A stretch of 64,000 bases of DNA from an uncultured Clostridia bacterium (GTDB lineage: Bacteria > Bacillota > Clostridia > UMGS1883), in the NCBI GenBank assembly GCA_947629005.1, contig CANRCD010000001.1:62001-126000 (forward strand), given 5' to 3'. Below are positions 43,906 through 47,945 of the stretch, piece by piece (position 1 is the stretch's first letter; the number at the start of each line of letters is the position of its first letter). Below the pieces are notes generated by a model that was not told where the DNA came from, did no database searches, and saw only the letters and a list, made by a program, of their open reading frames with translations. Both the position numbers and the translations under genes were made by a program.

Positions 43906-44504
43906 TGTTTTACAAAATTGCTTCCACGGCTGTTCGGCTGTTTTTCAAGCTTTTTTTCCGCATGAAGGTGATCGGGGCCGAAAACGTACCCGCTGAGGGC
44001 GGCGTGCTGCTTTGCACAAACCACACCAGCTACTGGGACCCGCCGGCCGTTGCGTCGGCCTTTCCCAGAAGGCTTTCCATAATGGCGAAGGAGGAGCTTT
44101 TTCACAACCCTCTTTTCGCCAAGCTTATAACCTCGCTCGGGGCATTCCCGATTAGGCGCGGCAAGGGCGACGCGGGCGCCGTCATGGCGGCGCTTAAAAT
44201 CCTTGCAGGCGGAGGAGCGACTCTTGTATTCCCCGAGGGAACCCGCGTGCGCACCGGAGAAGCCGGCGAGATAAACCCCGGCATAATCCGTATCGCTATC
44301 AAGGCCAGAACGCCAATAGTTCCCGGCTATACAAACGGTAAATACAATCTTTTTGGCGGACTTAAGGTATACATAGGCAAGCCGATAAGCTATGAGGAAT
44401 ATTACGACGCCGCCCCCGATAAGGAAACGCTGCGCCGCCTTGCCGAAGAGCTTATGGCCGCGATATATTCCTTTGCAAAGGAAGATAAAGAGGAAAATAA
44501 ATGA
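43905..44504 (+). CDS. plsC: 1-acyl-sn-glycerol-3-phosphate acyltransferase
   Basis: The 199-residue membrane-bound acyltransferase makes phosphatidic acid. It has the catalytic NHTSYWD (H-x4-D) and FPEGTR motifs, and an N-terminal hydrophobic stretch. The ATG at 43905 overlaps the cmk stop by one base and has AAGGAG 8 nt upstream; a GTG one codon earlier is the alternative. Confidence 0.94.
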   Translation: MFYKIASTAVRLFFKLFFRMKVIGAENVPAEGGVLLCTNHTSYWDPPAVASAFPRRLSIMAKEELFHNPLFAKLITSLGAFPIRRGKGDAGAVMAALKILAGGGATLVFPEGTRVRTGEAGEINPGIIRIAIKARTPIVPGYTNGKYNLFGGLKVYIGKPISYEEYYDAAPDKETLRRLAEELMAAIYSFAKEDKEENK

Positions 44505-46546
44505 GAACCGTCAAAATTGCCGACCGCGCGGGCTTTTGCTTCGGCGTCAGCCGCGCCATAAAGCTGGTTGAGGATGGCCTCGCGAGGCATATCTCAATTG
44601 CGACGCTCGGCCCTATAATACACAACAGTCAGGTGGTGCAGCGCCTTCAAGATATGGGCGTGCGCATAATTAATTCTCCCGAGGAGGCTCGGGAGGGCGA
44701 AACGGCGGTCATACGCAGCCACGGCCTTCCGCGGGAGGACGAGGAGCGCCTCAAGGCGCTGGGAGTGAATTACATTGACGCCACCTGTCCCTTCGTAAAA
44801 AAAATCCATAACATTGTTATGGAAAACCATTCCCTTGGGAAAAACATCATTATAGCGGGCGATAAATCTCACCCCGAGGTCATCGGTATTAATGGCTGGT
44901 GCGGCAATTCCGCAGTTGTTATAGCTTCGCTCGAGGAGTGCGAGGCTTTGCCGCAAGAGCTGCTTGAAAACGCCTGCGTGGTGTCGCAGACGACCTTTGA
45001 AAGAGAAATTTGGGAAAAAATCACAAAATTTATAAAAAACACTTGCAAAACCACCCTCATTTTTGATACAATATGCAGTGCGACAAACGAGCGGCAGAAA
45101 TCCGCCGCCGAGCTGGCCGAAAAAAGCGACAGCTTTATCGTCATTGGCGGCAAGAGCAGCTCAAACACAAAAAAGCTTTACGACATAGCCCGCCGCCGCT
45201 GCCCGAGCACCTTTCTGGTGGAGGGAGCGTGGGAACTTCCCGCCCATGAAATAAAAGGGGACTTGATTGGTATAACCGCCGGGGCTTCAACTCCGGATTG
45301 GATAATTAAGGAGGTTTACGTAATGGTAGACGAACAGGAAAAAAACATCAATAATGAGAAAGGAGACCAATCCTTCGCTGAGGCTTTCGAGCAATCGCTT
45401 GTATCGCTCAACACCGGTGATATAAAGGTAGGTAAGGTAGTCAGCGTAACGCCCACTGAGGTTTATGTTGACTTGGGCTACAAGATGGAAGGCGTCATTC
45501 CGGCCGATGAGTTGGCCGACGATACCGACGTTGATCCGGCCAGCGTTTGCAGCGTGGGCGACGAAATTGAGGTTTTCGTTGTCCGCGTAAGCGACATGGA
45601 CGGCGTTAAGCTTTCCAAGAAGAAGATTGACGCCATTAAGGGCTGGAAGACGGTTGAAGCCGCTTATGAGTCCGGCAAGGTTCTTGAGGGCAAGGTAGTG
45701 GAGGCCGTTAACCGCGGTATTATCGTAGTCACAAACGGCTGCCGCGTATTTGTGCCCGCTTCTCTGGCCAGCGAGCGCTTCACCAGCGACCTCTCATCCC
45801 TTGTGGGCAACGAGGTACGCTTTAAGATTGTGAACATTCGTGAGGATCGCCGTGGAAAGAAGGCCATAGGCTCCATCAAGGAAGTTGCTGTTGAGGAACG
45901 CAAGGCCAAGGCCGAGGAATTCTGGGCCAATGTTGAGGAAGGCAAGCATTATACCGGCGTTGTAAAGACGCTCACTAAGTTTGGCGCTTTTGTTGATATC
46001 GGAGGTGTGGACGGCCTTATCCATATTACCCAGCTCAGCTGGCAGCGGATAAAGGACCCTTCCGAGGTTGTCAAGGTTGGCGATGTTGTTGACGTTTACA
46101 TCATCAAGGCTAACCGTGAAACGAATAAGGTTTCTCTTGGCTTCAGGAAGGTTGAGGACGACCCGTGGGTAATCGCTAAGAGCAGGTTCGACGTTGGCAG
46201 CGTTGTGAATGTTAAGGTGGTTCGTCTCGTTCCCTTTGGCGCTTTCGTTGAAATAATCCCCGGTATCGACGGCCTTGTTCACATTTCCCAGATTGCCAAC
46301 AAGCGCGTCAACAAGCCCGAGGACGAGCTGACTGTCGGCCAGATGGTGGACGCTAAGATAACCGACATCGACTGGGAGAAGAAGAAGATAGGTCTTTCCA
46401 TTCGCGCGCTTCTCACCCCCGAGGCGCCCGCTCCCAAGGCTGAGGCTCCTACCGAGGATGTTGCCGACGAAACTGTTTACGAGGACGCTCCCGCCGAAGA
46501 TGCGCCCGCTGAGGAAGCTCCTTCCGAGGCCGCTTCTGAGGAATAA
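44501..46546 (+). CDS. ispH: Fused HMBPP reductase (IspH) and ribosomal protein S1
   Basis: The 681-residue protein joins two functions. Residues 1-274 are IspH, the last enzyme of the MEP isoprenoid pathway, with its three cluster cysteines at C13 (GFCFGVSRA), C94 (DATCPF) and C190 (DTICSATNERQ) and SHPEVIG. Residues about 275-660 are ribosomal protein S1 with four S1 RNA-binding domains (starting near 300, 390, 470 and 560), and an acidic Ala/Pro/Glu tail. This fusion is known in Clostridia. A perfect ribosome binding site and in-frame ATG at codon 275 could also give free S1. Confidence 0.95.
   Translation: MRTVKIADRAGFCFGVSRAIKLVEDGLARHISIATLGPIIHNSQVVQRLQDMGVRIINSPEEAREGETAVIRSHGLPREDEERLKALGVNYIDATCPFVKKIHNIVMENHSLGKNIIIAGDKSHPEVIGINGWCGNSAVVIASLEECEALPQELLENACVVSQTTFEREIWEKITKFIKNTCKTTLIFDTICSATNERQKSAAELAEKSDSFIVIGGKSSSNTKKLYDIARRRCPSTFLVEGAWELPAHEIKGDLIGITAGASTPDWIIKEVYVMVDEQEKNINNEKGDQSFAEAFEQSLVSLNTGDIKVGKVVSVTPTEVYVDLGYKMEGVIPADELADDTDVDPASVCSVGDEIEVFVVRVSDMDGVKLSKKKIDAIKGWKTVEAAYESGKVLEGKVVEAVNRGIIVVTNGCRVFVPASLASERFTSDLSSLVGNEVRFKIVNIREDRRGKKAIGSIKEVAVEERKAKAEEFWANVEEGKHYTGVVKTLTKFGAFVDIGGVDGLIHITQLSWQRIKDPSEVVKVGDVVDVYIIKANRETNKVSLGFRKVEDDPWVIAKSRFDVGSVVNVKVVRLVPFGAFVEIIPGIDGLVHISQIANKRVNKPEDELTVGQMVDAKITDIDWEKKKIGLSIRALLTPEAPAPKAEAPTEDVADETVYEDAPAEDAPAEEAPSEAASEE
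45308..45325 (+). promoter_or_regulatory. Internal ribosome binding site and start codon at the IspH/S1 boundary
   Basis: AAGGAGG (45308-45314) is followed 8 nt later by an in-frame ATG (45323-45325, codon 275). The product would begin MVDEQEKN and contain only the S1 part. The AAGGAGGTT bases also encode the conserved Lys-Glu-Val at the end of IspH, so chance cannot be excluded. Confidence 0.55.
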
Positions 46547-46620
46547 GTTAAAACAAGGCGATGTAAAAAAATCGCTATGTAACTTGGCTGCGCGTGGGAC
46601 GGCCGAAAAAATTGTGCAGA

Positions 46621-46713
46621 ACGGACGAAAATCAGCTTGCGCAGGCGGCTTTTGCCGTGGAACAAGCCCTCCCTACGGCGTATACAGGTACGCCGAGGAT
46701 GATTTTTGTTCGT
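46621..46713. ncRNA. Predicted three-way-junction element after ispH-rpsA
   Basis: Three helices can be drawn by hand. P1 pairs 46621-46634 with 46700-46713 (14 bp, two G-T pairs). P2 pairs GCTTG 46635-46639 with CAAGC 46663-46667 and contains a small hairpin (45649-type tetraloop TTTT, stem 46645-46649 with 46654-46658). P3 pairs CCT 46672-46674 and CGGCGTA 46676-46682 with TACGCCG 46689-46695 and AGG 46696-46698, with one bulged A. Nearly all bases are used. The element has no convincing reading frame and lies between a coding end and a terminator. It may be a small RNA, a 3'UTR element, or a small mobile DNA element; the strand is uncertain. Confidence 0.5.
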
Positions 46714-46734
46714 AGTTTAAGGTCATAGAATAAG

Positions 46735-46763
46735 AAAATCCGCTCATACGAGCGGATTTTTTT
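46735..46763. terminator. Bidirectional intrinsic terminator
   Basis: AAAATCCGCTC (46735-46745) and GAGCGGATTTT (46750-46760) form an 11-bp stem with loop ATAC, followed by more T. It separates the ispH-rpsA operon from the convergent dprA gene. Confidence 0.93.
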
Positions 46764-46796: not shown

Positions 46797-47945
46797 TTAA
46801 GAACATTTTCCAACAGTCTTATATCCGTTATACTCACGTACAATAAGGCCCTTGAGCTCCATCATAATAAGAGCGGGAGCGGCGGAGGCTTCGTTAAGCC
46901 CTGCGGCGGCGGCTATGGCGTCGGGGGTGGAGGCGCCGTTTTCAATAGCTTTAATTATGGCCTTTTCGTCGGCTGTAAGGCCATCGGGAGGATTTTTAAC
47001 GACTGCCCTTTCAGCCGTGCGCGGCTCTTCGTTTTTAGGCGTGGGAGCGAGGGGCGTGAACAGCGAAGGCTTTCCGGCCGGCTCCGCCTTCTTTTCATGC
47101 GCGGACCGGCTTTCGCTTTTAAACGAGAGCAGCACCTTAAGCTCAGCCGCAACCTGAAGGCCGTTTTCAGCGAGGATAGCGCCGGTTTTTATCAGGTGGT
47201 TAGCGCCGGTGCTTCCGCGGGAGTTAATGTTCCCCGGTACTGCGAACAGGGGGCGGCGGAGGTCGGCGGCGAGATTCGCCGTGATAAGAGAGCCGCTTCT
47301 AAGTCCCGCCTCGGTTACGACGCAGGCGTCGGCAAGGGCGGCAATTATGCGGTTCCGCCGCGGAAACAGCGCGGCCAGAGGCTGTGTGCCGAAGTGGTAT
47401 TCGGTTATCACAGCTCCGCCCGAGGAGGCGATTTCATCAAAGAGCTTCGCGTTTTCGGCGGGATAGCACACATCGGCTCCGCTGCCGAGCACGGCCACGG
47501 TTTTACCGCCGAATTTCAGCATGGTCTTTGCGGCGGCGCTGTCAACTCCGCGTGCACCGCCGGAGATGACCGTCAGCCCCGCCTCGCAGAAGTCACGGCA
47601 GAAATCCGCCGTCACCGTCAGTCCGTAGGCCGAAGCGTCGCGGCTGCCTACAACGGCCACGCTGTTGCCGGTAAGAGCTTCGGCGCTGCCGCGCAGATAT
47701 AGCTGAGCGGGCGGCTCGGGCAGGTTTTTCAGTTTTTCGGGATATTCTCTGTCGGTGTAGCAAATCAGGCTCACATCTTTGGCGGGCGGGCGCTCGAGCG
47801 AGACCAAAAGGGCGTGGGCCGAGGGCGTAGTAAGGCGGGGATCGTCGTCGCGTATATCCTTATATATCAGAGCAAGATGATCCAGCGCGTACTTTTTGCC
47901 CGTAGTTTCCGCCGCAAGGATTATCCACTTGTGCTTGTCGTTCAT
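46797..47945 (-). CDS. dprA: DNA-processing protein DprA
   Basis: The 382-residue protein loads RecA on incoming single-stranded DNA during transformation. It has the Rossmann-fold landmarks VGSRDASAYG, ISGGARGVDSAA, GTQPLAALFPRRNRIIAALAD and FAVPGNINSRGSTG, and a C-terminal winged helix (about 310-378). GAGGTT precedes the ATG. It is alone on the minus strand with its own promoter. Its presence does not by itself show natural competence. Confidence 0.95.
   Translation of the reverse strand: MNDKHKWIILAAETTGKKYALDHLALIYKDIRDDDPRLTTPSAHALLVSLERPPAKDVSLICYTDREYPEKLKNLPEPPAQLYLRGSAEALTGNSVAVVGSRDASAYGLTVTADFCRDFCEAGLTVISGGARGVDSAAAKTMLKFGGKTVAVLGSGADVCYPAENAKLFDEIASSGGAVITEYHFGTQPLAALFPRRNRIIAALADACVVTEAGLRSGSLITANLAADLRRPLFAVPGNINSRGSTGANHLIKTGAILAENGLQVAAELKVLLSFKSESRSAHEKKAEPAGKPSLFTPLAPTPKNEEPRTAERAVVKNPPDGLTADEKAIIKAIENGASTPDAIAAAAGLNEASAAPALIMMELKGLIVREYNGYKTVGKCS

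Follow-up and report, generated by a model that had tools for sequence, protein, structure and literature searches.

A dispersed, structured and probably mobile intergenic repeat of Clostridia, present as a truncated copy downstream of an IspH-S1 gene

Downstream of a gene for an IspH-S1 fusion protein, in the 64,000-nucleotide stretch of Clostridia DNA analysed here (the window), lies a compact RNA-like element that is probably a 3′-truncated copy of a dispersed, structured and non-autonomous mobile repeat, built from an outer stem (P0) and two arms (A and B). We put the probability of this reading at roughly 0.6. The repeat reaches tens of copies per genome, occurs in about one sixth of the genomes sampled from a major class of gut bacteria and is missing from the public library of RNA families. 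The initial annotation had offered three readings of the element, namely a small RNA made from the operon's 3′ end, an mRNA stability element and a small non-autonomous mobile element. The last of these is the best supported, being favoured by the dispersed copies, by copies that appear identical, by two pairs of occupied and unoccupied sites and by a placement at gene 3′ ends that is neutral as to orientation.

The element first reported corresponds to arm A (Table 1), a three-way junction with a minimum free energy (MFE) of -46.5 kcal/mol. Not one of 200 dinucleotide-shuffled sequences folds as low (0/200), their energy being -26.2 +/- 3.1 (z = -6.58). The element thereby passes the comparison with shuffled sequences that the initial annotation had proposed. 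The closing helix drawn by hand recurs unchanged in the MFE fold, as does the second helix, GCTTG/CAAGC around an inner 5-bp hairpin with a TTTT loop. The third helix does contain the bulged A and is 11 bp long (3+8) instead of the 10 bp given; 4 nt separate it from the second helix, to which it had been described as directly adjacent; and the computed fold pairs about 77% of the 93 bases, close to the estimate of about 80%. The statement that no reading frame explains the element needs a small correction, since an 85-aa ORF (46458-46715) technically overlaps it, but this ORF is an alternative frame over the S1 C-terminus and has no sign of being a real gene. A terminator scan also recovers the terminator already noted, as a hairpin that begins 21 nt past arm A.

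The repeat in the window is larger than the reported element. Its conservation with other copies starts near position 46560, several copies matching from query positions 1-7 of 46560-46760, and continues through the terminator. The stop codon of the IspH-S1 gene immediately precedes it, the end of a DprA-like gene adjoins its 3′ side, and a sequence scan found no promoter-like site just upstream. The 3′ partner of P0 (TCTGCGC in other copies) is absent downstream of this copy, as is the 3′ partner of arm B, GCCCTTGAA. Because it keeps the P0 5′ strand, arm A, the arm B 5′ strand and the terminator without these two 3′ strands, we consider it truncated.

Table 1. Parts of the repeat copy in the window and its two neighbouring genes (positions are those of the window).
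Feature	Positions	Strand	Basis
Upstream gene, IspH-S1 fusion, 681 aa, single ORF	44501..46546	+	name from the initial annotation, domains not scanned
Genus-specific 5′ segment, would supply outer part of P0	46560..46613	+	similarity to copies
P0 5′ strand GTGCAGA	46614..46620	+	P0 helix present in 64 full copies
Arm A, three-way junction (P1, P2, P3)	46621..46713	+	fold, covariation
P1 5′ strand, partner 46700-46713, 14 bp, two G-U	46621..46634	+	fold, covariation
P2 hairpin GCTTG...CAAGC, inner GCGGC-TTTT-GCCGT; varies among copies	46635..46667	+	fold, covariation
P3 hairpin, conserved tip, consensus CCCGAMGGCGTACNNNGGTACGYCGAG	46672..46698	+	fold, sequence conservation
Arm B helix 5′ strand TTTAAGGTC (TTCAAGGGC in relatives)	46716..46724	+	copies compared
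Intrinsic terminator hairpin AAAATCCGCTC/GAGCGGATTTT and T run	46735..46763	.	sequence, scan, other copies
DprA-like gene, 382 aa, convergent	46797..47945	-	name inferred from sequence

Complete copies measure ~210-330 bp, with the outer stem P0 opening into arm A and arm B. P0 pairs GTGCAGA with TCTGCGC and has a variable extension (read past the terminator in relatives). Arm A combines P1 with a P2 whose length varies and with the sequence-conserved P3 tip. The predicted structure of the tip has GA pairs in two internal loops. The helix of arm B differs in sequence from copy to copy (the pairs seen are TTCAAGGGC/GCCCTTGAA, CATAAAGCA/TGCTTTATG, CAAAAAGGC/GCCTTTTTG, CTTATGGGC/GCCCATAAG and others) and surrounds the terminator hairpin. 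Since this hairpin is palindromic, it should be usable from either side. The junction sequences are AACGGAC, GTTCGTAG and CGGTCTG. Relatives in other genera have this common core with differing helix sequences, and complete copies from those genera fold unaided into P0, arm A and arm B (z of -8.7 and -11.4). The sequence upstream of the copies differs among genera and often includes an extra terminator directly upstream.

Parts of the repeat are also found in other combinations. Loci L018 and L028 miss arm A and keep what lies on either side, as though this arm formed an independent module, and loci L014, L017, L019 and L022-L024 are mosaics with other palindromic segments in its place (e.g. 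TTTAGGTTTTTTCAAAACCTAAACC and CCCCGCAAAGACGGC blocks). Many stand-alone terminators in the genome of the window carry the arm B hairpin sequence (matches to query 173-201), so that the terminators themselves look repeated.

Copies of the repeat were located by search. With 46560-46760 as the query, the genome of the window yields some fifteen more complete copies, 71-86% identical to it, plus many partial ones, and a covariance model finds 15 copies there at E<1e-6. At E<=0.001, the model finds 34 copies in G003, 19 in G006, 42 in G007, 49 in G023, 34 in G078, 54 in G137 and 12 in G304. Each of the seven further genomes of the genus of the window has 14 or more matches. Across the class sample, the covariance model detects the repeat in 65 of 391 genomes and 39 of 223 genera, the copies per genome being at least the number listed in most of the 65 positives. 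Among named records, the repeat occurs chiefly in MAGs of Clostridia from gut and rumen. Groups of equal-scoring, apparently identical arm A copies are found at separate loci in G007 and G078. Tandem arrays are also observed, on four contigs of G023 (C22, C23, C27 and C28, with a unit of ~240 bp) and at loci L052, L042 and L178 (~154 bp compact copies).

The fold is preserved through compensatory changes. For arm A, an alignment of 19 diverse sequences (A2) has double changes in 16 of 26 pairs and a covariation score of 0.365 compared to 0.143 when shuffled (0/500). A larger alignment of 98 covariance-model matches (A3), which was fitted to the model and hence leans towards it, forms 94.0% of its pair cells and contains 282 double-change cells for 90.9 expected (0/500 shuffles). 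The initial annotation had suggested looking for compensatory changes in homologues, and its helices are indeed kept in them. P0 and arm B lie outside the covariance model and were anchored by a consensus motif: in 64 full copies they are 97.3% paired and have 183 double-change cells, where shuffles of entire partner strands gave no more than 91. Because this anchor includes part of the 3′ strand of P0, cleaner evidence comes from the pairs of arm B. The copies were recovered partly by similarity and are therefore not independent, and the strand-level shuffle together with the diversity of arm B makes relatedness alone an unlikely cause of the covariation. Finally, wobble cells in P0 and arm B are G-U in 90 cases and A-C in 11, which identifies the sense strand as the one that folds.

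The repeat has a preferred position relative to genes. Among 70 copies with both neighbours resolved (assigned by a simple longest-ORF rule), 37 are convergent, 20 are (-,-), 12 are (+,+) and a single one is divergent. Relative to the window, convergent regions are enriched (p = 0.0003) and divergent regions avoided (p = 0.0007), and the orientation bias between (+,+) and (-,-) is not significant (p = 0.22). Taken together, these results fit a strand-neutral insertion at gene 3′ ends and do not fit an element tied to the upstream mRNA. For 20 of the 70 copies, just one neighbouring gene turns its 3′ end to the repeat, and the repeat is antisense to it; accordingly, neither of the other two readings of the initial annotation, a small RNA derived from the operon's 3′ end or an mRNA stability element, is supported as a general function. 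No recurrent neighbour was found among 123 neighbouring proteins, the commonest Pfam family, SLH, accounting for 6 of them (25 families listed). One locus (L039) has a 6S RNA gene on its minus strand (1688-1876; RF00013 in Rfam, with 75.6 bits) that is convergent with a copy of the repeat.

Related genomes contain the same sites without the repeat. In the sister genome G004, whose S1 and DprA are 95.5% and 83% identical to those of the window, the S1/DprA junction has a terminator alone, and the repeat is likewise absent from this junction in the more distant G005. At a second site (L007), the genome of the window has a whole repeat and G004 an ordinary terminator. The plain terminators at the unoccupied sites of G004 are ~27 nt long. 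The search for flanking genes in G004 and G005 covered 7 of the 10 prepared sites, and among the other flanking genes located, only those of L289 are adjoined by the repeat. For the S1/DprA site, a gain in the lineage of the window is a simpler reading than a loss in G004. The terminator of G004 at this junction resembles the arm B hairpin and, judging from its sequence, could be a remnant of the repeat; with two unoccupied sites having both flanks, a deletion that retained the terminator is also possible. No clear target-site duplication was seen by eye in the flanks of recent copies or at the two unoccupied sites, where the ends of the repeat are placed only approximately.

We propose that the repeat spreads as mobile DNA to intergenic 3′ ends, where it would settle beside terminators or replace them and would be tolerated because it carries its own bidirectional terminator. 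The inverted-repeat ends would form P0, and a putative trans-acting enzyme would recognise the folded strand, most likely via the P3 tip and the junction sequences. Regarding such an enzyme, no recurrent transposase is found among the 123 neighbouring proteins (25 families listed). Y1_Tnp (PF01797) is absent from the genome of the window and from G006, G007, G023 and G078. Its presence shows no association with carriage of the repeat (29 of 65 carriers compared to 159 of 326 other genomes, p = 0.59). Missing from copy-rich carriers and without association, it leaves a mobilisation of the RAYT/IS200 type unsupported. Mobilisation by a reverse transcriptase was also rejected, RVT_1 being missing from the genome of the window, G023, G078 and G137. 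Against mobility stands the internal fold, which is conserved more strongly than mobility alone demands.

A different explanation is that selection maintains the repeat as a bidirectional terminator or insulator at convergent gene ends and that recombination has spread it. The terminator hairpin within arm B of complete copies, the prevalence of convergent over divergent positions (37 and 1 of 70) and the additional terminator often found directly upstream of a copy are all in line with such a role. Nonetheless we regard it as unlikely, given that at these sites G004 has nothing more than an ordinary terminator of ~27 nt, that a terminator needs neither arm A, P0 nor a sequence-conserved P3 tip, and that the repeat forms tandem arrays. 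The wobble bias towards the sense strand, the compensatory changes and the sense orientation of the left neighbour in 49 of 70 copies could also be explained by a cis-acting, protein-bound RNA element in the 3′ UTR that would act on the stability or localisation of the upstream gene's mRNA. This is in our view rather improbable: (+,+) copies are not in excess of (-,-) copies, the latter offer their sole adjacent 3′ UTR the antisense strand, the neighbours have no function in common, and sites are gained or lost between species.

A compact fold followed by a terminator also resembles a small RNA gene, and the copies might thus form a family of stand-alone small RNAs, each with its own promoter. 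The window copy has no promoter-like site directly before it, the upstream sequence varies among genera and often contains a terminator, and a genome has tens of redundant copies, all of which makes this very improbable.

Outside the Clostridia, the pattern of the P3 tip is found in 6 of 112 Bifidobacterium genomes, including Bifidobacterium leontopitheci (L180; also L277-L281). These tip hairpins lie at gene ends and have a constant core and an outer stem that differs by copy yet stays complementary. A Helicobacteraceae MAG (GH11) has six tip hairpins at gene ends (L185, L269, L273-L276) in a third arrangement, with the outer stem AAAAGTTTCAG...CTGGAACTTTT. It is the only one among 200 Campylobacterales genomes to carry the tip, so contamination or recent transfer is possible for this MAG. 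About 23 specified tip bases are matched exactly, several times, compared to zero matches for a reversed control pattern, which makes chance unlikely; convergence on a short motif is a possible source of the sharing. Carriage of the tip by phages or plasmids was considered and rejected: the Bifidobacterium tip has no match in annotated phages or plasmids, and IMG/VR holds the tip in 4 stretches only, three of which are one locus. As a tentative and somewhat doubtful suggestion, the P3 tip CCCGAMGGCGTACNNNGGTACGYCGAG in its stem may serve as the module through which an undescribed trans-acting system, common to distant bacteria, recognises the repeats. The tip would then cap differently built gene-end hairpin repeats in Clostridia, Bifidobacterium and the Helicobacteraceae MAG, and the tip-bearing repeats would be branches of a new class of structured elements, mobile or recognised as RNA by protein, which uses neither Y1 transposases nor reverse transcriptases.

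Many genes have 3′ ends shaped by the repeat, which also hampers genome assembly, as with the copies at contig ends in G078. Copy-rich genomes lack the hairpin transposase and the reverse transcriptase usual for such elements, which raises the question of what enzyme mobilises or binds the repeat. A tip common to several phyla, if confirmed, would point to undescribed recognition machinery.

As far as could be checked, both the repeat family and its architecture are new. Over the whole window, no Rfam 15 family attains its gathering score, and a search of seven loci to E=10 gave no credible family for the element, which rules out a known Rfam RNA, although the repeat likewise has a conserved secondary structure with covariation. 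Nothing was found in the accessible parts of the literature on intergenic repeats of Clostridia, and a paper on structured RNAs in human microbiomes (PMC8040213) may list the repeat; literature matched by sequence strings gave results that look like chance primer matches. A riboswitch or leader attenuator was rejected, as the neighbour in the window is convergent and a co-directional downstream gene is found in only 13 of 70 copies. Integron attC sites (core boxes RYYYAAC / GTTRRRY) were also rejected: the edge GTTCGTAG is unlike GTTRRRY, and the copies are dispersed at the ends of genes and not in the gene-cassette arrays typical of integrons.

Repeats of the ERIC/bcr1 type are intergenic, one to three hundred bp long, with inverted-repeat ends, an RNA-like fold and a presumed non-autonomous mobility. 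Our repeat is similarly intergenic, with inverted-repeat ends and a conserved RNA-like fold, and is presumed non-autonomous; by description, it differs from them in its nested junction, its conserved tip and its spread across many families within one class, where theirs is limited to a single species group. Terminal inverted repeats, a trait of the MITEs derived from DDE transposons (family reference for MITEs and ERIC/bcr1-type structured intergenic repeats: PMC2267715), are present as GGGGCCG..TGCAGA / TCTGCGC..CGGCCCC and equivalents. REP/BIME palindromes are GTAG- and CGTC-tagged and mobilised by RAYTs, REPs being 20-40 bp palindromes with the unpaired tag at one end (PMC3733652). Like them, the repeat is dispersed, extragenic and likely non-autonomous, lies mostly downstream of genes, between ORFs that are convergent or unidirectional, and has a GTAG, at the 3′ edge of arm A. 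Unlike a REP, it is a nested three-way structure of ~210-330 bp with three nested arms, and unlike the REP/RAYT system, it has no Y1 transposase in the genome of the window or in several copy-rich carriers and no association with one. In kind, the repeat is not unusual: it belongs with the dispersed and structured repeats of intergenic regions and is probably mobile. It is best read as REP-, ERIC- and bcr1-like in behaviour (the last two compared by description) and unrelated to them in architecture.
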